Source: Tridacna crocea (lineage: Eukaryota; Mollusca; Bivalvia; Cardiida; Cardiidae). Taken from it: DNA of 64,000 nucleotides. Both the position numbers and the translations under genes were made by a program. Position 1 is the stretch's first letter, and each line of letters opens with the position of its first letter. Shown piece by piece: positions 1,176 to 52,750 of the stretch. The notes below the pieces were generated by a model. The model was not told where the DNA came from. It did no database searches and saw only the letters and a program-made list of their open reading frames with translations. The stretch covers positions 33,264,619-33,328,618 of the forward strand of contig OX031071.1 in assembly GCA_943736015.1 (NCBI GenBank), read 5' to 3'.

Positions 1176-1370
1176 AAAGTCCGTAACAAAGAAACAAATG
1201 AATAAATGCATGGTAGAAATTAAGGGAGCGGGAGGGATTCAAACCCCAGACTCCCGGACGAGAGGCCAATACCTTAACTACTGAGCTAAAGAGATATCTC
1301 CCTGATGCAGTAGTCAAGTGTGTATTTAAATCGGGAGGAAGACATGCAGGAAGGAGTAGTCTCCCGTGAC
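1176..1370 (-). mobile_element. tRNA-derived dispersed repeat, copy 2
   Basis: Same limits and order as the copy at 257-450, starting at caaagtccgtaacaaagaaa and ending at ctcccgtgac. The B box is degraded to gggattcaaacccc and the A box reads tagctcagtagttaagg on the minus strand. Both copies lie in the same orientation about 920 bp apart with the gag-like fragment between them. Confidence 0.7.
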
Positions 1371-1380
1371 AGTTAACTTT

Positions 1381-2330
1381 TATTTAAAACATCCTCCTCT
1401 CTGAAACTACCCATCCAATTTTGATGAAACTTCACAGAAATGATCCTGCCATGGTCCTTTCTAGAATACCTTCAAAAGCTCTTGTTGCCATGGCAACAAA
1501 TATGAAAAATTTTTTAGAATCTTTGAAAATATTTTTGTCTGAAATGATGAGGCCTAGGGCTACCAAATTTAGCATGTAGCTTTATCAAGTGGAGCTCTAC
1601 CAAGTTCCTTCAAATGATAGCCCTTGGGTCAATATTGGCCCACCCTGGGAGTGGCCACCAAATTAGGGCCACCAAATTTGGCATGTATCTTTATCAAGTC
1701 GGTTTCTACCAAGAATGCCCAAAGTAATAGCTCTCACCTCAAATTTGGCCTGGCCCTGGGGGTCACAAGTTTTATATGGGCTTATATAGGGAAACTTTAA
1801 AAAATATTTTATTACATAGCGATGAGGCATAGAGCTACTAAATCTGGCATGTAGCTTAATCTAGCAGGTGTCTTACAAAGGGTGCCCAAATTATGGCCCT
1901 GAGGTCAAATTTGGCCCTGCCACAGGGGATTGCAAGTTCTACATGGGCTTCTATTGAGAAAACTTTCAAAAGCTACTTGTACTTACATGTTAGGCCTAGA
2001 CTACAAAATTTTGCTTGTAGCTTTTGTCGTGGGACTCTACCAAGAGGCCCCCAAATTCTAGTATTGGGGTCAAGTTTGTCCCGAGACCAGGAGTCACAAG
2101 CTACTTGCACCTAGCCTTAAGGCCTAGACTACCAAATTTTGCTTGTAGCTTTTTTAGTGGGCCTCTACCAAGATGAGTCTCGGGTTTTATAGGGCCTTTT
2201 CTTGAGGAACCTTTGATAATCTTGTTTATAACCACACATTATAAACCTGTATTATTTGGTATGGGACTTTATCTTGTGGACCTCCACCAGGATTCAAGTA
2301 ATTTTAGCTTTGTGGTCAAAAGGGAGTCAT
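1381..2330 (+). repeat. Degenerate tandem repeat, proximal part
   Basis: Six or so diverged units share ctaccaaatttagcatgtag, a caagtgg block, ctctaccaag and a ggtcaa...ggccc block, spaced about 125-160 bp apart (near 1575, 1690, 1850, 2007, 2142 and 2267). The first part (1385-1600) is present in inverted orientation at 10350-10632, so this is a dispersed family rather than a purely local satellite. No coding potential is seen. Confidence 0.7.
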
Positions 2331-5354: not shown

Positions 5355-5553
5355 ATTTCTTCACCGGAAATACGCTGCTTTAACATATTTATATTTATAA
5401 AGCTTCTCTTAAAAAAACCGGCATCTGATCGCTGATTGGCTGATTGTTTTTTGAGTTGGTGGAGCTGGCGTTTGATTAGTTGTACAATTAACAAAATTTT
5501 TCTTCGCCGGAATCACGCCGTTTTTACATTTTCATATTTATAAAGCTTCTCTT
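5355..5553 (+). repeat. Two spaced direct repeats (~50 bp) upstream of a MITE
   Basis: A block near 5358-5410 (cttcaccggaaatacgctgc ... tataaagcttctctta) recurs near 5502-5553 (cttcgccggaatcacgccg ... tataaagcttctctta). The second copy abuts the TTAA of the MITE at 5552. The ORF read here is not protein-like. Confidence 0.6.
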
Positions 5554-5785
5554 AACTCGTTACCAAACGACAATATTATATATGTAGGGTTGTCCAAATT
5601 GAAAGCATTTGCAGAGGACATAATAAAATTGACTGAAAATTTGAAATTTGTTTTGTGAAGGGTAGAAAACATTGTGGGAAAAGGAGAAAATGCTGCTTAC
5701 CAGCTTTTTCTCCTTTTTCACAATGGTTTTCTAATGGCTTCTTTCTCAGGGTCTCAAAAGTAGGGACTGTGCATTAACGGTAAAA
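5552..5785 (-). mobile_element. MITE family A, full length with eroded 3' terminus
   Basis: TTAA at 5552-5555 is followed by ctcgttaccaaacgacaa, then aaagcatttgcagaggacat, the palindrome and cttctttctcagggtc. The far terminus reads gtgcattaacggtaaa instead of gtgtggtaaagggttaa, so the right TTAA is damaged. Confidence 0.85.
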
Positions 5786-7382: not shown

Positions 7383-7612
7383 TTAACTCTTTACCAATCG
7401 AAAAAAATGCTAGCCTTGACTAAATTTAAAGACTTTGCAGACAACTAAATAAATGTGACAAAAACTCTAGAAAGTAGGCTTTTCGAGGGCAGAAAACATT
7501 TTGGGAAAAAAAGAAATGCTGGTTACCGGCATTTTCTCCTTTTTCACATTTAAAAACAACAACTCTTTTTCAGTTAAATGTTACAAGTTGGGATAGAGTG
7601 GTAAAGGGTTAA
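7383..7612 (-). mobile_element. MITE family A, full length
   Basis: TTAA 7383-7386 with ctctttaccaa and TTAA 7609-7612 preceded by gtggtaaaggg. The core is gaaatgctggttaccggcat. It lies within the first half of the 384-bp tandem duplication. Confidence 0.88.
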
Positions 7613-7766: not shown

Positions 7767-7998
7767 TTAACTCTTTACCAAAAGAGAAAAATGTTAGACT
7801 TGACTAAATTTAAAGACTTTGCAGACAAATAAATAAATGTGACAAAAGCTCTAGACAGTAGGCTTCTAGAGGGTAGAAAACATTGTAGGAAAAGAAGAAA
7901 ATGCTGGTTACCGCCATTTTCTCCTTTTTCACAACATTTTTTAAAAAAACTCTTTTTTCAGCTTTGATACAGGTTGGGATAGAGTGGTAAAGGGTTAA
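7767..7998 (-). mobile_element. MITE family A, duplicated copy
   Basis: The counterpart of the copy at 7383 in the second half of the tandem duplication; TTAA at 7767-7770 and 7995-7998. The palindrome (aaatgctggttaccgccatt) differs slightly from its twin. Confidence 0.88.
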
Positions 7999-10632: not shown

Positions 10633-10861
10633 TTAACCCATTACCACACAATCCCTACTTCTGACGCCCCTGAGAAAGAAGCCTTTTGAAAACACTGTAG
10701 GAAAAGGAGAAAATGCTGGTAACCAGCATTTTCTCCTTTTCCAACAGTGTTTTCTACCCTTCCCAGAACAAATTTCAATTTTTCATTCACCTTTATTTTG
10801 TCGTCTGCAAATCCTTTCAATTTGAACCAGTTTAAAATTTTGTCGTCTGGTAAAGAGTTAA
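10633..10861 (+). mobile_element. MITE family A, reference full-length copy (229 bp)
   Basis: TTAA 10633-10636 and 10858-10861. The termini are cccattaccacacaat and tctggtaaagag. The central palindrome spans about 10685-10757 with axis at ggtaacc; nearly every base pairs, so a transcript would fold into a hairpin of over 30 bp. No coding capacity. Confidence 0.93.
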
Positions 10862-11241
10862 AATAAAATTTAACACACGGCAGACACCGGGCCATCACCT
10901 AAGCCCGCTGGCCATCGGCCAATGGAGCTTAAAATCATCTTAACCTGGAATTGATACAGTTTCTAGAGCATGTACAACCTATAGAAAAATTTTCGTAAAG
11001 AAAATTTAAGAAAGCAGTATGAATATATTTTCAGTAACATTAGAGTCCATTTCAAAGCTGCTTATTACTGGACTGTCAAACCCAAGAAAGAAAGGAAGAA
11101 ATACAGTTACTTTAAACATTATTTTGTACTAACTTTTTAACCACTTGAATACCTATTCAGTCAAACATTGCTTTTTGTACCTTTTTAATGGTGTTATAAA
11201 TGTACAAGAATAGTAATAAAGTAGACCTGAATGTCCTACGA
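10862..11241. other. Unassigned stretch
   Basis: A short GC-richer patch (10880-10925) and AT-rich remainder. No repeat partner or gene recognised. Confidence 0.35.
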
Positions 11242-11473
11242 TTAACTTGTACCTTTTCTGTTTACCAAATAACAAAATTTCAGTCTGGAACAAATCAAAG
11301 TATTGGAGTACAACAAATTAAATGATGTTAAAATGATGATTTTTGTCTTTGATAGTGTAGAAAAAATTTGGGAAAAGGGGAACAGAGAAACGCTGATAAC
11401 CAGCTGTTTCTCCTTTTTCCACAATGTTTTCAAAACCCTATTTATCAGGGTCGTTGAAAGTTGATCGAGTTAA
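11242..11473 (-). mobile_element. MITE family A, diverged left arm
   Basis: TTAA 11242-11245 and 11470-11473. The right half (ccagctgtttctcctttttc, aaaccctatttatcagggtc) is clear. The left arm keeps tttaccaaataacaaaattt. Confidence 0.75.
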
Positions 11474-11682
11474 CAGCATTTACATGTAGATGAAACACTT
11501 GGCTACACAGAGAACTTGTGGAGGCCAAAACTCTAAGAGAGTAATTCATAGCTTCACTGGCTTATGAGGACAAGCAATTTTGATAACTTAGTGGCAAAAT
11601 AAATTTCTAGAATGAATCTCTCTCATCATCACAGAGTACACATATGCATATTTCAGTTTAAACATTTACCAAAATATCTCTT

Positions 11683-11915
11683 GTAATCTTTTACCAAACA
11701 ATACACAATTTTCAAAGTCCTGGGAAAGAAGGCATTAAAAACTTTTTGAGAAAAGGCAAAAATGTGGTAATTAGAGTTTTCTCCCTTTCCCACAATTTTC
11801 TCGACTCCATCAAAAAGCTCAAGCTCACTAAATTTTCTTAGTCATTTCAATTTGTCATCTCCAGAAGTTTTGAATTTGAAAGAGTCTAAAAATCTGTCAT
11901 TTAGAAAAGGAAAAA
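11683..11915 (+). mobile_element. MITE family A, diverged
   Basis: The left terminus tcttttaccaaacaatacac, the palindrome aaatgtggtaattagagttt and the right arm agagtctaaaaatctgtcat are in the family order. Flanking TTAA sites are lost. Confidence 0.7.
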
Positions 11916-11942
11916 TGACATACATACATGTAAGACATATTT

Positions 11943-12008
11943 TGACAGAGTTTAGGGAAAAGATGAAATTACTGGTAACCAGCTATTTTTTCTCTTTTCA
12001 CAATGTAT
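11943..12008 (+). repeat. MITE family A palindrome fragment
   Basis: An isolated core (aaattactggtaaccagcta) directly before the next MITE. Confidence 0.6.
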
Positions 12009-12248
12009 TATAACCCTTTACCAGAAAGACATGCTGACTTTTAACCACCCTGAATAAGAAGAGACCTTCTTAAAACACTGGAAAACAGAGAAAATGCCGG
12101 TAACAAGCATTTTCTCCTTTTCCCACAGCATTTTCTACCCTATCGAACACAAATCACATCAATGATTATTGAGCAACATTAAAATAATTGTCTGCAAATG
12201 CTTTCAATTTGGACAGGTGTAAAATTTTGTCACATAGAAAAGCGTTAA
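12009..12248 (+). mobile_element. MITE family A, near full length
   Basis: Left end taaccctttaccagaaagac with eroded TTAA; palindrome gaaaatgccggtaacaagca; right end TTAA 12245-12248. Confidence 0.8.
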
Positions 12249-12669
12249 ATTTTAAGACATAACTTATTTTAGCCAATGATTTACTGATCACATTACAAGG
12301 ATCTTTTTTACTTTCCTCATGCATTTTAAGTTTGGCTGTTTTCAAAGAAAACGACAAAAATTAATTATGTCATAGCGATAGTGTCTGTAACGTCACGTGA
12401 AAACTTCATTATTTCATAGTATCTCTGTTAATACTGAAGGTTCATACTTCAGACTTGGTCAAGTTGTCCACTATTAAAGGTAAGCCTATACATCATGGGC
12501 TGGTAACCAAAATATTCATGTCCCTTTTGTTGACTGAATTTTCACCGAAAATCAAGCACTTACAACCTAGCATTGGCACCCTCATGAAGTGCTCTTGTTT
12601 TCATAAGGTAATGTGTTTCCTCACTAGTCTGACTACTTCACACATATCTGATCCTAAGTAAGATCAAGG
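12249..12669. other. Unassigned stretch
   Basis: No recognised repeat. An open frame of 68 codons at 12455-12661 has unremarkable composition and no recognised domain. Confidence 0.35.
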
Positions 12670-12835
12670 GCTTGTAAAAATATTGTGGAAAAATTATAAA
12701 AATGCTTATTTCTAGCATTCTCAACTTTCTCCACCATTTATTTTATTATTTCAGAAAATTATACAACTAAATGCCCAACAATGTATTATCTGTGAATGTT
12801 TTCAGCTCAGTCCCCAACAAAAGGATATGATAAAG
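12670..12835 (+). mobile_element. MITE family A, strongly decayed
   Basis: atattgtggaaaaattataa, a core aaatgcttatttctagcatt and a right arm attatctgtgaatgttttca follow the family order with many changes. Confidence 0.5.
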
Positions 12836-12892
12836 CACAAGCAAGATACCGTTTAATCATTTATTGAGGGACAAAATTTAGACCGGTCAAAA

Positions 12893-13122
12893 TTAACCCA
12901 TTACCACACAATCCCTACTTTTGACGCCCCTGAGAAATGAGCCTTTATAAAACAATGTGGGAAAAGGGAGAAAATGCTGGTAACCAGCATTTTCTCCTTT
13001 TCCCGCAATATTTTCTACCCATCACAAAAGAAATTTCAAATTTTCAGTCACTTTTATTTTGTCGTCTGCATATGCTTTCGATTTGGACAAGCCTAAAATA
13101 TTGTCGTTTGGTAATGAGTTAA
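12893..13122 (+). mobile_element. MITE family A, reference copy (230 bp)
   Basis: TTAA 12893-12896 and 13119-13122. The termini cccattaccacacaatccc and tttggtaatgag are well kept and the palindrome is near perfect. Closely similar to the copy at 10633. Confidence 0.93.
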
Positions 13123-13187
13123 AGGTAATATAGTGCAGACGCCAAATTGAGAATGGCTCCCAACAATGGATCTTGTCTACAGAATGG

Positions 13188-13363
13188 TAGAAATCGTTGT
13201 GGGGAATGGAGAAAATGCTGGTTACCAGCATTTTCTCCTTTACCCACAATGTTTTCTACCCTTCACAAAACAAATTTCAAATTTTCAGTCACTTTTATTT
13301 TGTCGTCTGCAAATGCTTTCAATTTGGACTAGTCTTAAATTTTGTCGTTTGGTAATGGGTTAA
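13188..13363 (+). mobile_element. MITE family A, left arm missing
   Basis: Starts inside the palindrome arm (ggtagaaatcgttgtgggga) and runs to TTAA 13360-13363. It lies 65 bp after the 12893 copy in the same orientation, so a local duplication followed by divergence is possible. Confidence 0.85.
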
Positions 13364-13569
13364 CCAGTACTTGTCTGGTCAAATCATCCTGACACTGGGT
13401 GCCAGTCATAATGCTATCCCCTTAATCCTGAGCATCAAGGGAGGAAGCCACCATAACCATTAATTTTCTTAAGTCTTTGGTCTTAACTAGTCATAGACTG
13501 AACCAATGACCTATATATATTGCTCACAATGCCACTGTGGCAGTGAGAAAATATTTACTTTGTTTCTAT
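13364..13569. other. Unassigned stretch
   Basis: Nothing recognised between the MITE and the next hairpin element. Confidence 0.35.
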
Positions 13570-13701
13570 CAGGGGTTGACATTAACTGTGTCCTGCAGTC
13601 CTGAGGACACCAAAATTTCAGAAGGGACATCTAGAATTCTTCATTTTTGAGAGTTAGGTGTCATGTAGTACACCTGGTGTAAAAGTTAGTGTCAAGCCCT
13701 G
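13570..13701 (+). mobile_element. 132-bp hAT-like MITE
   Basis: Terminal inverted repeats of 17 bp, caggggttgacattaac and (reverse complement of the right end) cagggcttgacactaac, 15 of 17 identical. A CAGGG start is typical of hAT elements, which duplicate 8 bp on insertion. The flanks gtttctat and acgcagtc do not match, so insertion could be old or the class wrong. Confidence 0.55.
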
Positions 13702-14127
13702 ACGCAGTCAAATACAGCAATTTTTCTATTTTAAGTGCAGACTCTGGACAAAACTGGTCTGATTTTGTAAATACATTGTATTTTCTTTGCATGTAAGCTA
13801 GAACAAATATTGACAATAATGACAGCTCCATTTTTTTGGAATGGATAACTCGGCAAAAAAATCAAATTATGGATTTCTTTACATACAGAGCTCCTGATAG
13901 AGGGAATGATTTTGATTTCAAAATTAAAATATTAATTATCCTCACTACAACCTATGCTGTGGGTACTCATAAAATCATCTCATCGAAACAATTCTGAGAA
14001 AGTTGACTGTTCCGACAACTTTGGGTTTCGTAGAGAAATAACAAGTTTAGAATACCATCACTCCCTATTACTTGGAGCTCTGACGTATAAAGTGGGTAGC
14101 AATTATGAAGATGTGCAACCATAAAAA
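13702..14127. other. Unassigned AT-rich stretch
   Basis: No repeat partner or coding signal recognised. Confidence 0.35.
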
Positions 14128-14400
14128 GCCTTTATAGCTGAGTTGGTAGAGCGTACGACTTGTGATCATGAGGGTGTAGGTTTGATCCACACGGCTGGCC
14201 ATCCAAAATTTAATACTAATTGTCTTTCAGATGAGACGTTAAACCAAGGTCCCGTGTGACTGCGCTATGTATCGAGCACATTAGAGGATTGATTTCGTCC
14301 AGTATCTGCACTATCCCTTATAACAATACTAACAGCCTTCAAGGTGCGTTGCCCATCTGGGAAATGGGTGGGTATGATAAATAAACACAAATTCAATCAA
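14128..14400 (+). mobile_element. tRNA-derived SINE (family S2)
   Basis: Head with A box tagctgagttggtagagcg and B box gtaggtttgatccacac. The body contains tctttcagatgagacgttaa and ccaaggtcccgtgtgac, a conserved central block that I recall from several metazoan SINE families (for example V-type and bivalve SINEs). The 3' end is ggtatgataaataaacac. It shares no body with family S1. Confidence 0.75.
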
Positions 14401-14636
14401 TATACAACCAGTCTCAGAAAAATCTGGTAATTATCCAACAATGCAAGCAAGTGGGTTGCAGAGGTGAGCGTAACTGAATAAAGTGAGGGACTACATACTA
14501 TTCTCTGATATTCCATTATTCGTTCTCTTTTAGCATTTTGCAGTCAACTTTGATTCCCATATACCGTTTAGAAATCGCTGATACATTTCAGAGTGATGGG
14601 GGACAACCCCCCACTTCTCAAATCCTAGATCAGACA
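14401..14636. other. Unassigned spacer
   Basis: Nothing recognised. A short inverted C/G run (ggggacaacccccc) lies near 14600. Confidence 0.3.
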
Positions 14637-14877
14637 TTAACCCTTTACCCCATAACTAAGGCATTCCTATGGCAGCTATAATTGACCATAAATAACAGCA
14701 AGGATGAAGCCGTTTCTTACGTGTAAATGACACCTTTTGATAGCATAGAATACATTGTGACAAAAGGTGAAATTGCTCGTAACAAGCAATTTCACCTTCA
14801 GGCTATTAGCCGATATGTTTTCCAAAGGCTCCTACAAGCAATGTGTAGAAATGAGTATCTATGGAGTAAAGGGTTAA
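14637..14877 (+). mobile_element. MITE family B (241 bp)
   Basis: TTAA 14637-14640 then ccctttaccccataac; right end atggagtaaaggg before TTAA 14874-14877. The palindrome differs from family A: gtgaaattgctcgtaacaag / caagcaatttcacctt. Internal ccttttgatagcatagaata links it to the family B copy at 41485. The right TTAA is also the left TTAA of the next MITE. Confidence 0.88.
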
Positions 14878-15102
14878 CTCTGTACCAAACGACAACATTT
14901 TAGATCGGTCCACATTGAAAGCATTTGCAGACGACAAAGTAAAAGGGACTAAAAATTTGAAGTATGTTTTTGGAAGGGAAGAAAACATTGTGGGAAAAGG
15001 AGAAAATGCCTGTTACCATCATTTTGTCCTTTTCCCACAAGGTTTTTAAAAGGCTTCTTTAACAGAGGTGTTAAAAGTCGGGACTGTGTGGTAAAGGGCT
15101 AA
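14874..15102 (-). mobile_element. MITE family A sharing a TTAA with family B
   Basis: Starts at TTAA 14874-14877 with ctctgtaccaaacgacaaca and ends at gtgtggtaaagggctaa, where TTAA has become CTAA. The palindrome is imperfect at the tip (aaatgcctgttaccatcatt). Confidence 0.9.
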
Positions 15103-26375: not shown

Positions 26376-26497
26376 TTAACCCTTTCCCAAACGACCAAAT
26401 TGAAAGCATTTGCAGACGACAATTCAACTCTTGCTGAAAAGATGATTTCTGACTATGATAGGGTAGAAAACGTTGTGGGAAAAGGAGAAAATGCTGG
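26376..26497 (-). mobile_element. MITE family A, left half, running into a minisatellite
   Basis: TTAA 26376-26379, cctttcccaaacgaccaaat, gaaagcatttgcagacgaca, gggtagaaaacgttgtggga, gaaaatgctgg. The sequence then jumps at the palindrome centre into the first 60-bp unit. Confidence 0.85.
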
Positions 26498-27534
26498 TCC
26501 GGGTTAAAAGAAGGCATAATTCCTGTCCATAATGTTGCAAACTGGGGTCTGTGTGGTCCAAGTTATAAGACAGCATAATTCCTGTCTAGAGTCCTGCAAT
26601 CTAAGGTCTGTGTGGTCCGGATTAAAAGACAGCATAATTCCTGTCTATAATGTTGCAAACTGGGGTCTGCGCGGTCCGGGTTAAAAGACAGCATAATTCC
26701 TGACCACAGTCCTGCAAACTAGGGTCTGCGTGGTCCGCGTTAAAAGACAGCATAATTCCTGTCCACGTTCTTACAAACTGGGGTCTGCGTGGTCCAGATT
26801 AAAAGACAGCATAATTCCTGTCCACGTTCTTGCAAATTAGGGTCTGCGTGGTCCGGGTTAAAAGACAGCAAAACTCCCGTCCATAGTCTTGCAAACTAGG
26901 GTCTGCGTGGTCCGGGTTAAAAGACAGCAAAATTCCCTTCCATAATGTTGCAAACTAGGGTCTGCGTGGTCCGGGTTAAAAGACAGCAAAATTCCTGTCC
27001 ACATTCTTGCAAACTGGGGTCTGCGTGGTCCGGGTTAAAAGACAGCAAAATTCCCTTCCATAATGTTGCAAACTGGGGTCTGCGTGGTCCGGGTTAAAAG
27101 ACAGCAAAATTCCCTTCCATAATGTTGCAAACTAGGGTCTGCGTGGTCCGGGTTAAAAGACAGCAAAATTCCTGTCCACATTCTTGCAAACTGGGGTTTG
27201 CGTGGTCCGGGTTAAAAGACAGCAAAATTCCCTTCCATAATGTTGCAAACTGGGGTCTGCGTGGTCCGGGTTAAAAGACAGCAAAATTCCTGTCCACAGT
27301 CTTGCAAACTGTGTCCTGCGTGGTCCGGATTAAAAGACAGCATAATTCATGTCCATAGTGTTGCAAACTAGGGTCTGCGTGGTCCGGGTTAAAAGACAGC
27401 AAAATTCCTGTCCATTATGTTGCAAACTAGGGTCTGCGTGGTCCGGGTTAAAAGACAGCAAAATTCCTGTCCATAATGTTGCAAACTGGGGTCTGCGTGG
27501 TCCGGGTTAAAAGACAGCATAATTCCTGTCCATT
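26498..27534 (+). repeat. Minisatellite, 59-60-bp unit, 17 full copies plus a partial
   Basis: The unit reads tccgggttaaaagacagcaa, aattcctgtccataatgttg, caaactggggtctgcgtgg. The starting tcc falls near 26498, 26557, 26616 and so on to 27501. Variation is concentrated in cataatgttg / cacattcttg / cacagtcttg variants, which alternate along the array in a way that suggests higher-order duplication. The block tctgcgtggtccgggttaaaag resembles the family A end (ttgtgtggtaaagggTTAA), so the unit may derive from a MITE terminus. Confidence 0.95.
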
Positions 27535-33018: not shown

Positions 33019-33545
33019 GAGCCGTGCTCTGTGAAAAGTGTGCTTAATGCGTCTGGAAAAAAGGACCGATCAAGGTAAGCCTGCACAATCCGCACAGGCT
33101 GACCGGGGCCAAAACTTTTTGCTTAAGACAAATGTTCTGTATGTTCAAATACCGTTCTACCCACGATTCAGTCTGTTTAACAAGAAACTCGATTTGATGT
33201 ACCCAAAATCATAATTGGCTTGCAACACGCGAAAAGGGGCATTCGGACATTTGCGTAAAGTGTCTTCTCGGATCAGCCTGCACAGTCCGCGCAGGCTAAT
33301 CCGAGACGACACTTTACAATATTATTAGATTTTGTTCCACAGTAAACTTGTGCAAAACAGAAAATTTCATAAATACAGAGAGTGTCATCTCGGATTAGCC
33401 TGCGTGGACTGCGCAGGCTGATCCGAGAAGACACTTTACGCAAATGTCTGAATGCCCTTTTCGTGTGTTGCAAGCCATATAATGTCTTGTTTGGTGTAGT
33501 AAATTACGAAGGTACATTAAGCACCCTTTTGTCAGCGTGGGGCTC
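33019..33545 (+). mobile_element. Family D element with a second palindromic element nested inside
   Basis: Outer termini gagccgtgctctgtgaaaag tgtgcttaatgc and, reversed, gagccccacgctgacaaaag ggtgcttaatg. Removing 33218-33478 leaves about 266 bp, close to the 255 bp of the uninterrupted copy at 42027. The join falls in a shared ataatt context. Confidence 0.75.
33218..33478. mobile_element. Nested 261-bp palindromic element
   Basis: ggcttgcaacacgcgaaaag gggcattcggacatttgcg at the left is matched in reverse at the right. Each arm contains its own hairpin (ttctcggatcagcctgcaca gtccgcgcaggctaatccgaga and its partner), giving palindromes within a palindrome. A related tandem form is at 42300-42560. 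Confidence 0.85.
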
Positions 33546-37959: not shown

Positions 37960-38545
37960 ATACACAGCGTCCAGTGTATCCAAGCATGTGTTTCCTAGCT
38001 TTCTCAGACCAGTCCTTACATAGCTTTCTCAGACCAGTCCTTACACAGCTATCTCAGACAAGTCCTTACACAGCTCTCTCAGAACAGTCCTTGTAAACAC
38101 AGCTTTCTCAGACCAGTCCTTACACAGGTCTCTCAGACTGGTCCTTACACATGTCTCTCAGACCAGTCCTTACACAGCTTTCTCAGACTAGTCCTTACAC
38201 ATGTCTCTCAGACCAGTCCTTACACATGTCTCTCAGACCAGTCCTTACACAGGTCTCTCAGACCAGTCCTTACACAGCTTTCTCAGACTTGTCCTTACAC
38301 AGCTTTCTCAGACCAGTCCTTACACAGCTTCCTCAGACTTGTCCTTACACAGCTTTCTCAGACCAGTCCTTACACAGCTTTCTCAGACTTGTCCTTACAC
38401 AGCTCTCTCAGACCAGTCCTTACACAGCTCTCTCAGACCAGTCCTTACACAGGTTTCTTTCCAAGTTAAGGACTACTTTTCTTACATGCATCAGAAGTGA
38501 GAAGCGAAAAAAAGTTTGCCTCAATCATATATCAAACATTCAAAT
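37960..38545 (-). mobile_element. SINE family S1 carrying an internal minisatellite
   Basis: Left of the array gtgtttcctagctttctcag and right of it ccaagttaaggactactttt cttacatgcatcagaagtga, then aagtttgcctcaatcatat, follow the S1 body in reverse, as at 9840-9930. The minisatellite occupies the position of the S1 block ggctttctcacaccagtact gacac. Confidence 0.8.
37997..38450 (+). repeat. Minisatellite, 25-bp unit, 18 copies
   Basis: The unit is agctttctcagaccagtcct tacac, with variants aggtctctc, atgtctctc, agctctctc and agacttgtcc. One unit has a 4-bp insertion (cttgtaaacac). Total 454 bp, which fits 18 units plus 4 bp. The long frames across it are artefacts of the 25-bp period. Confidence 0.96.
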
Positions 38546-40889: not shown

Positions 40890-41372
40890 TATCGAGAAAA
40901 AGCAGTGAAAATATTTTTCGATCTTACACTGGTACCACCAGTGAAAATACCGATTTTCATGCTCTTGTTGCCTAGGTAAATTGCGCGTGCCTAACAACCA
41001 GATGGGAAATATGACGTCGCCTAGGTAAATTGCGCGTGCCTAACAACCAGATGGGAAATATGACGTCATATACCTTACATTTCTCGCGCTTGACGTAACG
41101 TTGCTATGCGGGAGGGGTACGCCACGGGGAGTAACGGAAAAGACCTGTACTGGATTTTGATAAAGCTCCTCCCAGAAAGGGTTAAACGTATGAAATAAAT
41201 AGAATATTTGTTTTTTTCGGTGAAAGATCGAAATTTATTTCATCTCGTGAACACCATCGGTAATATTTTCACTCGTGGCTGCGCCACGAGTGAAAATATT
41301 ACCGATGGTGTTTACTCGTTGAAATGAATTTTGATCTTTCACCGAAAAAAACAAATATCCTCTATATCATCT
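40890..41372 (+). mobile_element. Fold-back element R3, copy with intact palindromic loop
   Basis: Inverted partner of 16520-16935. The fold-back (41201-41361) has arms agaatatttg...cggtgaaagatcgaaattta and a second palindrome in its loop, cggtaatattttcactcgtg / cacgagtgaaaatattaccg. Upstream, a 49-bp tandem duplication (gcctaggtaaattgcgcgtg...) occupies 40970-41018 and 41019-41067. Confidence 0.88.
40970..41067 (+). repeat. 49-bp tandem duplication
   Basis: gcctaggtaaattgcgcgtg ... gaaatatgacgtc twice, identical. The 16.8-kb copy has a single unit. Confidence 0.95.
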
Positions 41373-41484: not shown

Positions 41485-41808
41485 TTAATCCTTTACTCCA
41501 TAGATACTCATTTCTACGCATTGCTTGTATGAGCCTTTGGAAGACACTGTGGCAAAAGGTGAAATTGCTCTCGACGAGCAATTTCACCTTTTGCCACAAT
41601 GTTTTCTACACTATCAAAAGGTGCCATATACACATAAGAAATGCAAAAGGTGAAATTGCTCTCGACGAGCGATTTCACCTTTTGCCACAATGTTTTCTAC
41701 ACTATCAAAAGGTGCCATATACACATAAGAAATGACTTCATCCTTGCTTCTATTTAGGGTCAGTTAGAGATGCCATAGAAATGCCTAATGGGGTAAGCAG
41801 GTAATTAA
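41485..41808 (-). mobile_element. MITE family B with duplicated core
   Basis: Left end TTAA 41485-41488 tcctttactccatagatact; right end aatggggtaagcaggtaatt aa. The core with its arm (gcaaaaggtgaaattgctct ... acacataagaaat) is present twice, 41552-41642 and 41643-41733, period 91 bp. Partner of 14637-14877 in opposite orientation. Confidence 0.88.
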
Positions 41809-44387: not shown

Positions 44388-44611
44388 TTAACCCTTTCCT
44401 TCATATATACTCATTTTGACGTATCTTTACAGACAGCTTTTGAAAACATTGTGGGAAAAGGAGAAATTGCTCGTAACGAGCAATTTCTCCTTTTCTCACA
44501 ATGTTTTCCATTCAATCAGATATTTGTATCCTCATTTGTCCATATTTTTGACATGATGTTTTCATCTGCTGCAGAAATGGAAGAGTCTCAAATGTCAGGT
44601 AAAGGGTTAGC
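44388..44611 (+). mobile_element. MITE family C (224 bp)
   Basis: TTAA 44388-44391 ccctttccttcatatatact; core gaaattgctcgtaacgagca atttctcc, perfect palindrome; right end caggtaaagggttag where TTAA has become TTAG. Confidence 0.88.
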
Positions 44612-44964
44612 CCTTAAAGTGCCGAATTAAAACAAGAGACATTTTTAAATATCAAAACGGCTGAAATATTGCTGTACCAAGGCTTTTATGGCCAGAATAT
44701 GTAACAAAATAGTGGACAATGCAGATCTTGATCTTTACTGTACACAAAAACAAGTTAGTGATCGACCTAATTTTTTGTCCAATCAGAGAAGAGTATTTGT
44801 GGAAATTTTCTACCTCTAAAAGTCCATAAAATTTTGTCTGCTTGAAATAAAGACAGCCGTTCCGTACGTATGAATTCTACTGGCTCCTCCCACATCTACG
44901 TAAAATTAATTCATGCTCCTCCCAACCATTTAAAGCACGATTTGAAACTTGTTACAACACAACC

Positions 44965-45065
44965 TAAACCCTTTACCAAGTAATCCTGTATGTTATCGGT
45001 GAAAGTTTGATTGTAGAAAATGTTGCAGAAAAAGGGGAAATTGCATTAGAGGAATTGAGTAATAA
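44965..45065 (+). mobile_element. MITE family A fragment in unit 1 (also 52023, 59084)
   Basis: aaaccctttaccaagtaatc then gattgtagaaaatgttgcag aaaaagggg; the palindrome is lost. Present in all three units. Confidence 0.6.
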
Positions 45066-45500
45066 AACAAAATCTGATTTTTCTTCTCCATATCTTTACC
45101 CCCAATAAATTTTAGACCCAAATGGACGACCCAAGTAGCTTTTGCGTACTTTAACGATCAATCTGCAGAGAACGTGTAGTCTGATCATGAATTGAAACAT
45201 TGTGCTAAATGTTAAAATTTATGGACTGACTGCACGTTGTTCGTTCTGTATCATGACAAAAATTTGACAAAAAGAAATGACATTTGAAAATCTAGAACGT
45301 AAAAAAAATTATCTACAGCAAGAGCCAACTGATTAGTTTTTAGAAAAGTTCAACTTGTCCTTTTGTTTTATTTTGAAAATAACCCTAAAAAAAAGATAGT
45401 ATTTAGCAAGTACAGGTTTAAAGGAAAGTCCGAAAATGCTTGCCATGAACTCTTTACAAGATGCCAAAACTTAAGCCCGGCTCTAGCATATTAAAAGCAG

Positions 45501-45692
45501 CCCAGCCACGTATAATGGTTAGTATATCTGACTCGTAACCTGGAGGTTACGGGTTCGATACCTGGTTGCGCCGAACTCTCTTTCCGGTAAACTTTTGCAT
45601 CTCACCTCTGATGCATGTGAGAAAATTAGTCAGTGGCTTTGGAAAGAAAGTTGTGTCAGTACAGGTGTGATAAAGCCAGGAAACAGAAGCGG
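45501..45692 (+). mobile_element. tRNA-derived SINE family S1, unit 1
   Basis: Head with taatggttagtatatctgac (A box region), ctcgtaa (anticodon-loop-like) and gggttcgatacctgg (B box). The body cacctctgatgcatgtgaga, ggctttggaaagaaagttgt and gtgataaagccaggaaac is the S1 body, but the head differs from the copy at 4919, so S1 bodies occur with more than one tRNA head. Confidence 0.85.
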
Positions 45693-46026
45693 TGTAAAAT
45701 AACAATTATCAATAAATTAACCAATTATTCAATCTCTTAAAATGTCGACCTCATGTGATAACAATTGATAACGAGGAACAACAACAATTGAGATGGTAGA
45801 TTGTTTACAAATGTCATATCTAGATTATCTTATATATCCAAGGACAACGCATTTATAAATGAAAAGTGGATACATTTGTGATACCTAAATTGTTGACATT
45901 GAAAAATCAACATATACTAAAATTAATAGTGTTTCACATGTACCCTAAAGAACGAAATCTATTGATAAACATACGAACTTGTTTTATTTGAAAAAAAGAA
46001 AAAAAGGACTGCAATCATAAATCATA

Positions 46027-46293
46027 TCAGTTACCTGTTTTTACAAGTTCTTGTGTCAGGAATTGCAACAATTGCGTACATGATATATCCTTGTAAATTT
46101 CGTCTAAGTCATTTCCTGAGAAAAGGTCAAAGTGTGGTTTGGCTTCCGCCATTGTAAAGACAGCAAAGCTATGCACTTTTCTTTCGCAAAATTTGGGCTT
46201 GGAGACACGCATAACATGAGGGTACTGAGGAAATCCACGTGATAGTGCTGTTTTCTCGTGTTTCGGGCGTGTCTTTACAATAAAACAAAACAA
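46027..46293 (-). CDS. Hypothetical 88-codon frame, possible first exon, unit 1
   Basis: An open frame of 88 codons whose internal Met (46150-46152; context acaATGg) starts MAEAKPHFDLFSGNDLDEIY. The last codons overlap acag|gtaact (boundary 46035/46034), a good splice-donor match, so the coding part could be a 5' exon of about 40 residues rather than a complete gene. The MAEAKP...F...DL start weakly resembles N termini of KIAA1958/Crypton-derived proteins, from memory only. The frame is conserved without change in all three tandem units; they are so young that this says little about selection. No downstream exon is recognised. Confidence 0.3.
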   Translation of the reverse strand: MFCFIVKTRPKHEKTALSRGFPQYPHVMRVSKPKFCERKVHSFAVFTMAEAKPHFDLFSGNDLDEIYKDISCTQLLQFLTQELVKTGN

Positions 46294-46461
46294 TGAAATT
46301 TGATGAAAGTCATGTTTCTTGATATACTTATGTCATGTGGGCGTGTTTATACGGTCATGCGGTAATGAAGGCATGTCTTTGCATAATATCTAGGACAAAC
46401 TTTATAGAGAATGCAGTCTCTATAAAATGATTTATATAAAAACCCAGTCGATCACTAAGTT

Positions 46462-46563
46462 GGTTAGAGCACAAAAAGAGAATTCTACGAGAAAATAAAA
46501 GCTACGGCGCAGAGCGCCTTCGCTTTTATTTTCTCGAAGAATTCTCTTTTTTGTGCTCTAACC
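46462..46563. repeat. 102-bp hairpin, unit 1
   Basis: ggttagagcacaaaaagaga attct...cgagaaaataaaag at the left, cttttattttctcgaagaat tctcttttttgtgctctaacc at the right, ggcgcagagcgcc at the tip. One mismatch pair (tacgag against tcgaag). Confidence 0.95.
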
Positions 46564-46595
46564 ATTACTTAAGTCGGTTCCAGTGCTTTAAGGGC

Positions 46596-46947
46596 ATTAT
46601 CTCCCGGTAGATGGCGTTCTATAAATACTCACCTATCTAATTTGGGTATCCTGGGTAGAGAGCCGAACCATTTTCCTACGCGACAACAGTCACTTTGAAT
46701 TTCAAACTTAAATAAACGTTTACTCAATAAAATGCTACGTCGTGCAATTCACTCAGCTATGATCAGCAGTTTAGAGAAATCTGGAGCTAAAGCAGGTCTC
46801 ATTTCTCCTGAAAAGTATTGATAAAAGCTATTTGCTACATTGCTATTTTATAGAGCGTAATATTATGTACAGTCTGCCCGCTTTCGGGGCTAGTGATGCG
46901 TCATATAAGGCAATCGAATCTTCAAAGAATATGACATGCTCAGACAA
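46596..46947 (+). repeat. Dispersed repeat R5, unit 1
   Basis: Partner of 37189-37532; the second unit has it at 53654-54005. It begins 32 bp after the hairpin. Confidence 0.85.
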
Positions 46948-47517
46948 CGCTTTAAGGGTTAAATCCTCCCTGTACTAAAGATGGCTGACGTGGTTTGTAG
47001 TAGTAAAGTTTTCTATCATCACATAAACCACAGTGCCACGTGTTTTCTTTAATTCTTTCAGCGTCTATTTCTTTAATTCTTTCAACGTCTATTGTGAAAA
47101 TTGACCTCTTTCGACGCCCGAAATTACAATCCACTGACTCTGTGACAACACAGCATATATCAGGATCAGATTGCACTTTGACGGTTTAAGAAACTAACGC
47201 TAGTCTGACAGTAAAGTGTTGCCTTGTAGACTACTAAACAACCGGTTGTTATATAGATTCTGGACCAGACTGCACGTTGTGTTCAGTCTGATCCTGATCC
47301 ACGCCGTCCACAAAAGTATAAAAAAAGTATAGTTTTGACTATAGCTGAAAGCAATTTCGGTTGTCAAAAGGTTATTGCATCAGAAAATATAAGTGCACAA
47401 CCAATGTGTACATGCATCCTATTGAAAGGTCAAGTTTTCGCTTGTCTCTTCTCTCCCTGTTTATGTGTGTGGTTACTGCACGTAGACCATTGTTTGTATT
47501 ATTTAATAAATAGTTAA
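46948..47517. other. Unassigned, with inverted 'gatcaggatcag' motifs
   Basis: A 24-bp tandem duplication (tctttaattctttcagcgtc / ttaattctttcaacgtct) at 47043-47092 creates a repetitive minus-strand frame of 74 codons, not accepted as a gene. Near 47255-47315, ggaccagactgcacgttgtg and cagtctgatcctgatccacg are members of the dispersed motif facing each other. Confidence 0.5.
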
Positions 47518-47783
47518 TTAAACCTTTCCCAAACAATCCCTGGTTTTCACGACCCTGAAAAAGAAGTTTTTTGAAAGCATTGTGGGAAAAGGACTAAATG
47601 CTGTAAAAAGCTTTTTCTCCTCCTCCCACCATGTTTTCTACCCTCGCATAACATGTTTCAATTTTTGAGTCGCGTTAATTTTGTCGTCTGCAAATTCTTT
47701 CAATTTAGACCAGTGTAAAATTTTGTCGTCTGCAAATTCTTTCAATTTAGACCGGTCTAAAATTTTGTCGTTTGGGAGAGAGT
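47518..47783 (+). mobile_element. MITE family A with duplicated right arm, unit 1
   Basis: TTAA 47518-47521 acctttcccaaacaatccct; core aaatgctgtaaaaagctttt; then attttgtcgtctgcaaattc ... taaa twice in tandem (47678-47721 and 47722-47765, about 44 bp). Unit 2 copy at 54575-54840. Confidence 0.88.
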
Positions 47784-49319
47784 TCCAGTTAAATGGCTAT
47801 TGAGACTAGCTAGTCTAACAGGAAAATATAATAGAAAAAGACAATGAGTCAGTTCTCCATTTGTTTCAATGTTTTACGGTACAGTCGGACTGGTATCCCA
47901 AATTGTGACGGGGAAAACCCCTTATTTTCCTCAAGTATATGTTGTTGTCGCATGATCAGTGTAGAAAAGAGAAACTAGGTTACGTAATTTTATAGAACCT
48001 GAGGCCTAGAGAAATTTCCCGATATCTGTCCAGACTAAACATGCACGCGGTGGTCTGTCTTGTATAACATGTATCTTTATCAGTTCTTGTGACTCAGGGC
48101 GCTGTTGCGGACTGTATGTATAGGATATTGACTGAGTATAGTCCGGTCTGTTAGCTCAAAAATGTTTACCAGCCGGACGAAAGTGTGAGAATTTTATATG
48201 ATGTAAACAATACGTTTCTAAAACGAAAACAAGGGGTGTGCCCGATTTTAAGGCCCTAGATCAATTTTTATTGCGATTTGAAATTCGGATAACTGTACTG
48301 TCCGAATACTCTTCCTTTGTAGAACAGTAATTTGGTTCTTTCCTGTTTAGTTACAATGTATGATCGACAAAAAATGGTGTTTCAGTAGTATTTTGCCATT
48401 TTAAAGGCACAGATGGATTTAGGGATTGATTTAATGAATATTCTATATGTCTTTCGTATCTGTGTCTTTATCTGTCCGTCCATTTGCCTGTCATTTGCTT
48501 GCAATTTACATAGCCTACTTAAAAAGAACTGACTTTGAATTTCGCGTATAGGATTCCTTTGAATTTGGTCGATCGGCAGGACATATCAAATTGCCTTCAG
48601 ATTTCCGCATACAATGCAATAGACGATTTACCGATTGCATTTGATATAATGGATATTTTCCAAATGCTGTTTGTTCCGTTCGCAAATCCTTAACATTTGG
48701 ACAAATTCACAACTGAAAAGAAAATGACATAGCAAAAAATCTAGAGGAAATCAATTCTAACACAATTTAGTAATATTTTGTGATATTGCTTTTGAAAAAA
48801 AATAATCATGAACAGACGAAATATGCATTTTATGAGATCGTATTGAAATAAAGAGGATATAGAGACTAAGAATGAACCCTCTGTAACATGTGTATCATTC
48901 AAAATCCCGTCCATTAATGATCACCACACGGGTAAATTAATATGAAACAAAAGATACAAAGAGTCAGTTTAATGTGACACATGTTTGGGAATCTGTAAGA
49001 AGACAGTACATTACAACTCTTCTAAAGGTCATCCACCCTGCAGTGCCATACCGAGATCAAAGGAACACCGAGTTAACCCTTTACCCATTTTTCAAATCTT
49101 TAAATGCTCAAAATGAAGTTTGAATAAATGTTTTGTGAAAACGGTATGGAAGGTTTGAAATTTGATCTGAAGCCATGTTTCTTTTGTTCATGGTCTATAA
49201 TGTAAAGTTATTCGTCAATAGGAACATGCCTGAAAGTGCAACATAGACGGTTTGATAATAGTGCTGTAATACCAGTAAATGAACTGTCCCTGTCTCTCTG
49301 AAGACACTGGACAGCTATT
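47784..49319. other. Unassigned 1.5-kb stretch of the 7-kb unit
   Basis: No gene or known element. At 49074-49085 gagttaaccctttacccatt looks like one MITE terminus without the rest. Confidence 0.4.
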
Positions 49320-49620
49320 TTACCTTTTACCAAAGTATTTCGCGTTTTGGCGACCCGGAAAAAAGAGGGCAGACGTGCTGATTTGTCCCACTTTCTGTTT
49401 TTTTGTCTCACATCCTCAACTTCAACACCCCCCCGCCCCGCAAAAAAATTAATCAATATATAGTTTAAAAACATCTGTGAAAAATGAATTTTCAAAGTGT
49501 GAGAGAAGATATTGTGGAAAAAAAGAAATCTTTCTCCAGCTTCAAAAATATATATTACTTTTTCAAGGACAATTACAACCATTTGAACCACCTTTATTCT
49601 ATCGTCTCCATATGCTGGGT
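49320..49620 (+). mobile_element. MITE family A, enlarged and decayed, unit 1
   Basis: taccttttaccaaagtattt, ttggcgacccggaaaaaaga, gaagatattgtggaaaaaaa and caaccatttgaaccaccttt attctatcgtctccatatgc follow the family order around a C-rich tract (49428-49440). Unit 2 counterpart 56377-56679 differs in the C tract. Confidence 0.6.
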
Positions 49621-49623
49621 GTA

Positions 49624-50056
49624 GGACAAAAACCCAGTGGGACAAAAGCCCATTGGACAAAAGCCCAGTAAGACAAAAGCCCACTGGGACAATAGCCAAA
49701 TAGAAATTTTAGTTCTAATCATGTATGGAATTAATAAGTTTCGTATATATTATATGACTTGTCTCTACAAAAAGTAGAAAACATTATGTAAAAAGCAGAA
49801 AATGCCGATAAGCAGCAGTTTCTTCTTCTTTTACGTGGTTGTTATAAGAATGGGAAATAATGCACAGAATTAAACATTGAGAGGAAAGAAAAGCAATTTG
49901 ATCATTCTGATCATTAAATCTGTGTTTTTTCTACAAGAATTATTAAAAAATTATTTTTATACACTTTTTTATAAGTATTGAGCATTTGTTCTCCCCGTCA
50001 AAATTAGCAGTGAGTTTTGCCCAGTGGACTTTTGTTCAGTGGACTTTTGTCCGTCC
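49624..50056. repeat. Inverted 'ggacaaaagcccactgg' repeat around a MITE fragment
   Basis: ggacaaaaacccagtgggac aaaagccc and three more units lie at 49624-49693; gcccagtggacttttgttca gtggacttttgtcc lies reversed at 50014-50056. Between them is a minus-strand MITE-A fragment (49765-49872: gtagaaaacattatgtaaaa). Unit 2 copy begins at 56683. Confidence 0.8.
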
Positions 50057-50115
50057 CCCATATGCTAAGTACAGTATATGGATGTCGTCGGGTGAAAACA
50101 TTCACCGTTACTATT

Positions 50116-50341
50116 TAAAATCCTATCCCGCATAACACAAGCTTTCCACGACCCTGAGAAATATAGTTTTTAAAAACGTTGTAGAAAATTGATAAAGTTC
50201 TGGTAACCACTTTTTTCTCCTTTTCCATTTGCTATCCTTCTTACAAACAATTTCTTTTTTTTTTTTCAAGTCACATTCAAATTGTTGTCTGCAAAGGCTT
50301 GCAATTTGGCCAAGTCTCAAGTTTTCGTTTGGTAAAGATTT
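50116..50341 (+). mobile_element. MITE family A, unit 1
   Basis: ttaaaatcctatcccgcata acac, ccacgaccctgagaaatata, core gttctggtaaccactttttt and right arm gttgtctgcaaaggcttgca to tttggtaaagattta. Unit 2 copy at about 57175-57400. Confidence 0.8.
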
Positions 50342-51812
50342 AGTGGAGATTTAGTATTGTAAGAAATTGGGGAAAAGGGAGAAAAATAACATTAATATAA
50401 CTGCAATAGACCTTTCCTATTTTTATTTCAAATTGATCAACTAATGTTTGCCGAATTCCGTGGCTAAGTTTTTTTACGTACTGGCTCGAAATCCAGGAAT
50501 CGTGGGTTTGATGATCTAAACTATTAAAGTAATAATTTTTGTTAAAAAAAAATCGTTCCAGTATCTGCAAATAGACAGAGACAGTTTATTTACCAAAAAC
50601 TGGGATATCGTACCATTTCAATTTACAGCGAAAATCCTGACTCTGAAATAATATTTAAAATCTCTATAGTTGCATTTTTGTCATGTTTTTGTTTGAACTA
50701 CCTTATAAATTAACTATCGTAATAACAAAATTCAATTCAAATCTCAAACCTCCCATTCCTTCTAGAAAAAACAGAAGTTCGAGCACCGACTAACACACAA
50801 GTGTCATAATTAAGTGTTTATCCCGTTCAGCCTTACGTTGATATCACTTGTAAAGGTTTGGAATGGTTAAAATCTGTTACAGAGGATAAGTCTGTTCTTA
50901 TTACTGGCCCTTAAAAGGTGCATTTTTCTGCCCGAACATTTTTTTATGTTGTTTTCAAATGCATTATTATGTAACCTTATTTAACTGGTCCCAGTTTAAC
51001 TGTATGTTTGCACTTATTTCTTTCGGAATGGGCTGGGGGGATTTGTTTTTCAAACTATTAAACTTTATCCTACTAATTAAATGACACGTTAAAGCCGATC
51101 GTAAAATCCAAAATGTTATTTCAGAGGAATATCTCGAGGAAAAATATCTCCGTATCGGACAGTGTAGATGACCTAGGATCAGACTGCACGCTCTTCGAAA
51201 TACTTAGTCTATATTGTCTGCAAAAGATCATTGAATTGCGCTTTGCATCCTAAGGGTTAATGCATGCAGTCTGCATACAAAAGGTTCAACACGCCCGAAA
51301 GAAGATAGCGCTTATGGTACTGCTTTACTCTCTGAAGTCTACCGAAAGATTGATAAAACGACATTTCTTTTTTGTGTGTATCTTCGAAAAAGATGATTAA
51401 TAAAACTACCGGCACAAGCGTTTTAGGTTTTTTTGACCTTTAAAAAATTTCGTAACTTAATATAAAAATGAAAAAAATACTAAAAATGCCCATTCTGGGT
51501 ATCATTTCGGATTTATTCATGTCTATAGGCCTATTACTGAAAATAAACCAAAATCTACCTACAAAGTAAATAAAAAACAAATTTTCGAAAAAAATGAAGT
51601 TCTCTTAAATTTGAAAGCGTTTTGATCGACCCTCAGTGATCAAATTATTGTGAGATACAAATATATGTGTTCTTATAAAATACAACGGAAGATTATTCGG
51701 ACACTACATCTATCCGAATATATAATAGGCAGTAATTAATGAACTAGGCCACTAAAATCGGACACACCGGGCGCAAATGACTCGGACTGATGTCTATTAA
51801 CTGTATGCAAAA
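50342..51812. other. Unassigned distal part of the 7-kb unit
   Basis: No gene. At 51154-51190 atcggacagtgtagatgacc taggatcagactgcacg is a dispersed-motif copy. Confidence 0.4.
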
Positions 51813-52558
51813 TTAGTGATCGACCTAATTTTTTGTCCAATCAGAGAAGAGTATTTGTGGAAATTTTCTACCTCTAAAAGTCCATAAAATTTTGTCTGCT
51901 TGAAATAAAGACAGCCGTTCCGCACGTATGAATTCTACTGGCTCCTCCCACATCTACGTAAAATTAATTCATGCTCCTCCCAACCATTTAAAGCACGATT
52001 TGAAACTTGTTACAACACAACCTAAACCCTTTACCAAGTAATCCTGTATGTTATCGGTGAAAGTTTGATTGTAGAAAATGTTGCAGAAAAAGGGGAAATT
52101 GCATTAGAGGAATTGAGTAATAAAACAAAATCTGATTTTTCTTCTCCATATCTTTACCCCCAATAAATTTTAGACCCAAATGGACGACCCAAGTAGCTTT
52201 TGCGTACTTTAACGATCAATCTGCAGAGAACGTGTAGTCTGATCATGAATTGAAACATTGTGCTAAATGTTAAAATTTATGGACTGATTGCACGTTGTTC
52301 GTTCTGTATCATGACAAAAATTTGACAAAAAGAAATGACATTTGAAAATCTAGAACGTAAAAAAAATTATCTACAGCAAGAGCCAACTGATTAGTTTTTA
52401 GAAAAGTTCAACTTGTCCTTTTGTTTTATTTTGAAAATAACCCTAAAAAAAAGATAGTATTTAGCAAGTACAGGTTTAAAGGAAAGTCCGAAAATGCTTG
52501 CCATGAACTCTTTACAAGATGCCAAAACTTAAGCCCGGCTCTAGCATATTAAAAGCAG

Positions 52559-52750
52559 CCCAGCCACGTATAATGGTTAGTATATCTGACTCGTAACCTG
52601 GAGGTTACGGGTTCGATACCTGGTTGCGCCGAACTCTCTTTCCCGTAAACTTTTGCATCTCACCTCTGATGCATGTGAGAAAATTAGTCAGTGGCTTTGG
52701 AAAGAAAGTTGTGTCAGTACAGGTGTGATAAAGCCAGGAAACAGAAGCGG
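52559..52750 (+). mobile_element. SINE family S1, unit 2
   Basis: Copy of 45501-45692; differs at ctttcccgtaaac (ctttccggtaaac in units 1 and 3). Confidence 0.85.

Follow-up and report, generated by a model that had tools for sequence, protein, structure and literature searches.

The stretch of Tridacna crocea DNA considered here, which we call the window (64 kb; G000:C16:33264619-33328618, in a genome of 1.05 Gb in 31 contigs), is crowded with short TTAA-flanked repeats that carry a palindrome in the middle. It raises two questions: which transposase moves such elements, and why the palindrome is kept. We consider it very likely that they form a group of miniature inverted-repeat transposable elements (MITEs) of the piggyBac type, about 220-240 bp long, that they are mobilised by local piggyBac lineages, and that their palindrome is not passive filler. 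For family A, the piggyBac part of this reading is well supported and of a known kind. The new part, to which the pattern of variation among copies points, is that the palindrome is probably under constraint at the level of the source copies.

Abundance and structure of the elements

The original prediction that TTAA-flanked palindromic MITEs crowd the window was confirmed by end sites, by a hairpin scan and by a sequence profile compared with shuffles. When up to 3 mismatches to TTAACCCTTTACCA or TGGTAAAGGGTTAA were allowed, 41 left-type and 27 right-type termini were found, compared with 0-10 per shuffle in 10 Markov shuffles. The hairpin scan, which is blind to the ends, detected central palindromes with a 1-nt loop at 25-95 (belonging to a family A copy at 3-144 that the profile also finds), 10688-10754 (33-nt arms, 97% complementary, in the copy starting at 10633), 12960-13004 (22-nt arms, 91% complementary, in the copy starting at 12893), 13173-13273 and 44442-44508. 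The profile of family A was built from 35 complete copies outside the window and applied at E<=0.001; it marked 54 merged places covering 8,508 bp (13.3% of the window), and nothing in 5 shuffles. Since these 54 places also take in related palindromes from families C and D, and copies that a tandem segmental duplication has doubled, the predicted figure of about 40 family A copies or fragments in 64 kb is a fair count.

The family A consensus is 221 bp long, starts with CCCATTACCACACAATCCCTACTTTTGACGACCC and ends with TCGTTTGGTAAAGAG. Its palindrome lies in mid-element, at approximately positions 52-118; just inside the TTAA, the two ends pair imperfectly over some 10-16 letters, with unrelated arms in between. 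The terminal inverted repeats (TIRs), CCCATTACCA and CTCTTTACCA, are short and have a start like CC(C/T)T, the end motif quoted for piggyBac MITEs (PMC2872659); strictly it is CYC(A/T)TT, a small variant. Both ends were found in 38 of the first 60 sample copies, of which 36 measure 214-239 bp and the remaining two, with deletions, 169 and 210 bp. This is far below the size of a gene. Three open reading frames (ORFs) of at least 150 aa occur in the window, and none overlaps any listed MITE part.

Genome-wide, the left-end pattern TTAACYCWTTACCRNNCAAT has 86,493 forward and 86,298 reverse matches, 172,791 altogether, while the same pattern read backwards as a control gave 0 and 1. For a 25-bp palindrome core whose letters were allowed to be A- or C-like, 276,350 places were counted, or one per 3.8 kb (control 0). 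Both counts are lower bounds for the group because they include exact matches only.

TTAA target sites and partner piggyBac elements

The TTAA is a target duplication and not part of the element itself, as the comparison of filled and empty sites supports. One family A insertion (L031) has eight empty sister copies (L013-L019 and L033) with a single TTAA (GGCTTAAACC) in otherwise nearly the same sequence, and a ninth sister copy (L023) is mutated at the insertion site. These sisters are copies of another piggyBac element of this genome (ends CCCTTTATATAC). A further comparison comes from the window itself, where the complete family A MITE at 10633-10861 (plus strand, TTAA at both ends, found by profile) sits in a host repeat with an empty copy at window 1359-1448, in reverse orientation (1448-1359). 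The sites compared are paralogous, not allelic. The predicted contrast of two TTAA when filled and one when empty holds for eight sisters of one insertion. In the sample of 80 loci described below, the right end was located in 63 copies, and 49 of these 63 have TTAA directly after it. The 7.06-kb duplication at 44752-60691 and the segmental duplicates L002 and L003 were also tried as a source of empty sites and set aside, as their copies align without large gaps.

Neighbouring elements may have one TTAA in common. In the window, a family C MITE (14637-14877, plus strand) with a partly decayed palindrome and a TTAA on either side has its TTAA at 14874-14877 in common with a family A MITE on the minus strand (14874-15102, from end sites and profile), whose outer TTAA is now CTAA. 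Elsewhere, at L053 on C17, a family A end directly abuts the C17 autonomous copy. New insertions look as though they go into a TTAA that already flanks an older element.

The piggyBac transposase profile PF13843 has 118 matches in the genome. Thirty of these loci were examined, and ends were determined for part of them (L009/L012, L010 and L036 fall outside this part, and L038 is unclear). Several of the 30 loci carry other ends, such as CCCTTTATATAC, CCCATTTATGCC, CCCTTTCAGCGC and CCCTAGTCATGC. Two elements, partner 1 and partner 2, have ends similar to those of family A. Partner 1 (C5-type; L025-L029, L034 and L037) is a 7.2-kb element with the ends CCCATTACCG...GGTAATGAG; comparing its copies outward until identity stops gave the bounds TTAA-CCCATTACCGTTCAATAACGCC...CTGAGTGGTAATGAG-TTAA. 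Across the genome, the left end and the right end each have 11 matches at any similarity, which yield six full-length copies of 7,194-7,343 bp, and a further end pair lies on C5, 14.3 kb apart. Four of the six full-length copies have TTAA on both sides (C5, C15, C3 and C18). Five copies (L025-L029; on C15, C3, C5, C9 and C10) are mutually 99.5-99.98% identical over 4.1 kb, and therefore partner 1 moved recently; the sixth (C18, L034) is 97.5-97.8% identical. The 492-aa ORF of exon 2 matches PF13843 with E 2.7e-88 and, among PDB chains, piggyBat 9c0f (E 9.3e-40) and piggyBac 6x67 (E 3.3e-36). It contains SVDEAMIPFSGR, YFDNFFTG and GVDLHDQ, which we take to be the catalytic aspartate regions, and its C-terminal stretch is cysteine-rich. 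Partner 2 (C7:18507269-18513636; 6,368 bp, with TTAA on both sides and an ORF of 508 aa) is a more distant relative with the ends CTCTTTCCCACACAATCCC...GTGTGGGAAAGAG; it begins CTCTTTCCCACACAATCCCGACTTTTTACGACCCC, a unit repeated just inside.

Over the first 35 nt, the left end of family A agrees with partner 2 at 29 positions and with partner 1 at 27. Past the first 10 nt, the agreement with partner 2 is 22 of 25, compared with an average of 7.6 and a maximum of 17 in 10,000 shuffles. When only the first 16 letters are considered, the left end of partner 1 matches that of family A at 13, and the 10 ends of five other piggyBac elements of this genome at no more than 8. Family A thus starts with a left end of the kind found in this piggyBac lineage. 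Together with the empty sites, this supports the prediction that TTAA plus a CCC start marks a piggyBac-type element. The more specific expectation, a piggyBac ORF flanked by TTAA and ccctttacca termini, holds in part: PF13843 transposases lie in TTAA-flanked elements with similar ends, but among the loci with ends determined, the ends of the transposase elements come close to CCCTTTACCA without matching it exactly in any case.

This last result is one of several that weigh against the piggyBac reading. The right end of the MITE is unlike the right ends of both partners past the short TIR. Over 16 letters, the ends of families C and D match partner 1 at 8-11 positions and other piggyBac ends at up to 11; this length does not discriminate, and so the link of C and D to the partners goes via family A. 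The partner 1 copies on C9 and C10 lack the right and the left TTAA, respectively. Moreover, a second insertion, in L033, has seven empty sisters with TTTA, not TTAA, at the site.

Family A MITEs are already present inside the intron of partner 1 and downstream of its gene. Two other relationships were considered and rejected. The 435-bp repeats around the C5-type transposase do not belong to a composite, LTR-like element, but are family A MITEs, one nested in the intron and one downstream of the gene beside another MITE. Nor can family A be taken for a C5-type element that has simply lost its interior, since 260 bp of the C5-type left end matches only 11 places genome-wide.

On the reading that we prefer, the transposases of partners 1 and 2 would recognise the shared left end of about 35 bp and the short right end, excise the MITEs and reinsert them at TTAA, and would in this way have multiplied them into the hundreds of thousands. 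That families C and D are mobilised likewise would follow from their likeness to A.

Variation in the central palindrome and its explanations

Three families, A, B and C, with shared termini and different palindrome cores had been predicted. Families A and C stand, but B is family C on the opposite strand with a 91-bp internal tandem duplication (41485-41796, minus strand, one end decayed). An additional family, D, lies at 44388-44610 (plus strand), with an A-like outer stem, a C-like tip and a right TTAA that is now TTAG. The shared termini were confirmed, as the outermost letters are kept across A, C and D (C begins TTAACCCTTTACCCCATAAGG and D begins TTAACCCTTTACTCCACAGATACTCATTTTGACG). The cores proved to be variants of a single palindrome of about 67 bp with paired substitutions. 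The palindrome arm of A is TAGAAAACATTGTGGGAAAAGGAGAAAATGCTGGT; that of D is the A arm with ATTGCTCGT at its tip; and that of C has the D-type tip, with GGC and GTG in place of GGG and GAG. Family differences in one arm are mirrored on the opposite arm.

The same pairing was found genome-wide. Each of the 276,350 cores could be A- or C-like at two pairs per side; in 242,497 of them both sides carry the A letters, in 29,913 both carry the C/D letters, and these two fully paired states account for 98.6% of all cores, whereas the fourteen mixed combinations jointly number 3,940 (1.4%). An alignment of stems drew on 25 C/D stems and on 56 A stems that had passed a filter for register; it comprises 24 of the former and 55 of the latter (79 stems, 76 distinct); L116 and L155 were excluded by choice, as both looked out of register. 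In this alignment 95.2% of cells are paired. Changes on both sides of a pair occur in 92 cells, compared with 25.1 (standard deviation 3.9) in shuffles, none of 500 of which reached this value, although kinship of sequences alone can beat these shuffles without structure; slid alignments gave 4-16. Changes on both sides affect 12 of the 33 pairs (3-9 in slid controls). Because a perfect 12-nt tip was the criterion for choosing the C/D stems, their rows are biased at the tip pairs; pairs 13, 20 and 26 lie outside the tip, are free of this bias and have 13, 13 and 15 cells with both sides changed.

To separate changes private to one copy from those shared between copies, we used 80 loci chosen by their left 20 letters only (the first 80 of 100 listed places, all on contig C1). 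Profile matches were found at 78 of them and gave 91 places, all of which entered the table of pairs; the 77 above 60 bits were used for variants and deletions. In these 77 copies, substitutions seen in a single copy amount to 0.9-1.4% in the stem and 0.8-0.9% in the arms, and therefore copies decay evenly after insertion. Variants common to at least four copies, which represent source-copy differences or recurrent mutation, are distributed differently: they affect 1 of 24 sites in the tip, 16 of 42 in the stem base and 79 of 130 in the arms (p 1e-7 and 0.013). This contrast persists without CpG-like sites. Even private rates together with shared variants that avoid the tip argue for constraint on source copies and not for repair after insertion.

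A second, more diverged set was drawn from the window and other loci, including L001-L008, which had been picked up because they resemble a family A copy; of its 145 rows, 121 were left once near-identical ones had been taken out, and 90 once those with C/D-like tips had been dropped. The private rates are again similar (stem 0.9-1.1%, arms 0.7%), and shared variants occur at rates of 4.7% in the tip, 6.4% in the base and 16.3% in the arms.

Some of these results count against a constrained palindrome. In the second set, the contrast in affected sites has the same direction but is weaker (tip 15 of 24, base 25 of 42, arm 110 of 130; p 0.02 and 0.001). The 12 double-changed pairs exceed the slid controls only moderately, and the paired changes mostly separate families and do not arise within family A. 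One-sided G-to-A variants, which leave the pair open, stand at pairs 22 and 24 in 9 of the 77 copies each. Furthermore, in the one partner 1 copy scanned, both strong palindromes belong to nested family A MITEs, and all that it shows besides is a hairpin in the intron, whose arms are 12 nt long, and a short core-like stretch that has decayed. The latter (L039:491-513, CTGCTTGTTACAAGCAATTT), in the left part of partner 1, resembles a decayed family C core and is either a MITE remnant or the element's own sequence. As the scanned copy has no long palindrome of its own, the transposase seems not to need one, and the palindrome would be a feature of the MITEs.

Since the hairpin-forming centre is still paired though its letters have changed, it probably plays a part of its own in the spread of the elements. 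Under source-level constraint, only copies whose arms still pair would spread as sources, and the changes fixed in a family would then be paired. We tentatively suggest, as a possibility somewhat less likely than not, that the palindrome is a selected cis-acting amplification element, and that the group thus evolves in the manner of a structured RNA gene, with compensatory changes, while being non-coding. Our first guess is a symmetric cis-site that acts at the DNA level, either an internal site for dimerised cysteine-rich transposase domains or a cruciform that draws the element ends together. In piggyBac and piggyBat, a dimer of the cysteine-rich domain is described as binding a palindromic internal repeat (PMC7351741, PMC11707139). 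A symmetric internal docking site may fit both this behaviour and the cysteine-rich end of the partner 1 ORF.

Among the other explanations, a role as RNA survives best, though we find it unlikely. Read-through transcripts would contain a hairpin of about 33 bp, which a pathway of small RNAs or of editing would take up, and sources with good hairpins would persist. The paired stem changes suit this idea, and so does the folding of one copy, which as single-stranded DNA reaches -49.9 kcal/mol compared with -20.8 (standard deviation 3.3) for shuffles (z -8.9, with DNA parameters); symmetric DNA sites, however, would yield the identical paired pattern. Gene conversion or template switching after insertion, between arms or between copies, could also keep a palindrome without any constraint on sources, and a few private paired changes exist, such as GTTGG/CCAAC in L076. 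We judge it improbable because private substitutions are equally frequent in stem and arms in both copy sets, and because one-sided changes far exceed paired ones outside one sub-family site: in the 91 places, 263 cells are changed on one side; of the cells changed on both sides, 17 are complementary (10 of these at pair 26) and 15 are not.

Equally improbable is a third explanation, that the palindrome is a separate small element, with TA at its outer edges, which once inserted into a piggyBac MITE and looks conserved through recent origin. Many copies do have arms that begin and end TAGAAAAC...GTTTTCTA, and families A, C and D have the palindrome in common while their arms differ. Nevertheless, seven palindrome-poor copies were inspected and in none is the palindrome cleanly absent with one TA left at the site (no search was made for free-standing palindromes), L057 and L061 are deletions with junctions that each occur once genome-wide, and recent origin leaves the avoidance of the stem by shared variants unexplained. 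Deletions provide a weak test of the palindrome: the palindrome deletions L057 and L061 have one copy each genome-wide and the arm deletion L060 has five, but the deletions of at least 5 bp in the 77 copies, 10 in the arms and 5 in the stem, are each unique within the sample, so that the comparison does no more than lean one way. Finally, it is very improbable that a transposase of another animal TTAA superfamily, Kolobok, moves the elements, although the TTAA duplication alone is compatible with it and Kolobok is reported from bivalves (PMC10294476), because Kolobok ends begin RR/AG (RR/AGG in its MITEs; PMC6004289) and the ends found here begin CYC, and because the matching ends sit on PF13843 piggyBac elements, with no search made for a Kolobok transposase in the genome.

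Other features of the window and relation to known systems

The region 10633-15102 contains, in addition to the copies described above, a complete family A MITE with TTAA at both ends (12893-13122, plus strand, from the profile) and a copy with a damaged left end and an intact right end, TGGTAATGGGTTAA (13133-13363, plus strand; end sites, hairpin scan and profile), and partial family A copies lie between the complete ones. On the minus strand, a near-complete copy was found by end sites and profile at 5552-5777, and complete copies with TTAA at both ends by profile at 7383-7612 and 7767-7998. A family A-like copy at 47523-47781 (plus strand, from the profile) belongs to the tandem segmental duplication and has its second copy at 54580-54838. 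This duplication (44752-60691) consists of a unit of about 7.06 kb in tandem, with 99.5% identity over 8,884 bp at an offset of 7,058 and a third, partial copy after it. A hairpin is repeated near 46510, 53568 and 60631, and a long one with 55-nt arms (60757-60869) lies just past the third duplicated stretch.

Other repeats also occur in the window. An inverted repeat with 85-nt arms, 89% complementary around a 3-nt spacer (41195-41367), is distinct from the MITE palindrome. Two tandem arrays have units of 59 bp (26495-27533, 17.6 copies) and 25 bp (37997-38458, 18.3 copies). Two hairpins at 33250-33440 have motifs like gtcgtctcggattagcctgcgcag, which are common in bivalve genomes. A tRNA-like stretch at 14125-14380 (agctgagttggtagagc...) resembles the head of a short interspersed nuclear element; ARAGORN called no tRNA in the window.

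In the literature searched, nothing was recognised as this group, which may be catalogued in Repbase or Dfam. The nearest counterparts in that literature are the CMITEs of Acropora corals, which are likewise TTAA-flanked piggyBac-type MITEs in several families with an internal region conserved between families; one CMITE family has its TIR and a weak subterminal similarity in common with the local piggyBac AmiPB1 (PMC2872659). The CMITE internal region is more conserved than the TIRs, which change between families, and its origin and role are given as unknown; the available part of that account does not describe it as palindromic (PMC2872659). Here, in contrast, the ends and the palindrome are both kept, with the outermost letters retained across A, C and D and the palindrome changing in pairs. 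The scale also differs, with an estimate of about 1,600 CMITE copies in the coral genome (PMC2872659) compared with 172,791 left-end matches. The piggyBac and piggyBat transposons are similar in their related transposase, TTAA sites and palindromic internal repeat, but these palindromes are short, imperfect and near the ends (PMC7351741, PMC11707139), whereas the present one is about 67 bp long, near-perfect and in mid-element. This central position also sets it apart from foldback elements, whose long inverted repeats reach the element ends. Pokey/mPok of Daphnia is another piggyBac-superfamily system with MITE derivatives; a specific rDNA site is among its insertion sites, and the available account makes no mention of a central palindrome. 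The T2-MITE/Kolobok system of Xenopus has the TTAA target and long-lived MITE families, but differs in its AGGRR ends and THAP-type transposase (PMC6004289).

A repeat table for the clam Mercenaria gives 0.00 and 0.01% for PiggyBac and about 25% for unclassified repeats (PMC8905726), so groups like this one could be missed in annotation. Why a few MITEs multiply into the hundreds of thousands is a standing question. In this case, one genome supplies the ends and target sites of the elements, their likely partner transposases, a conserved palindrome and a clear contrast between private and shared variation. What makes a MITE spread therefore becomes testable, through the effect of the palindrome on excision and insertion by the C5-type or the C7 transposase.

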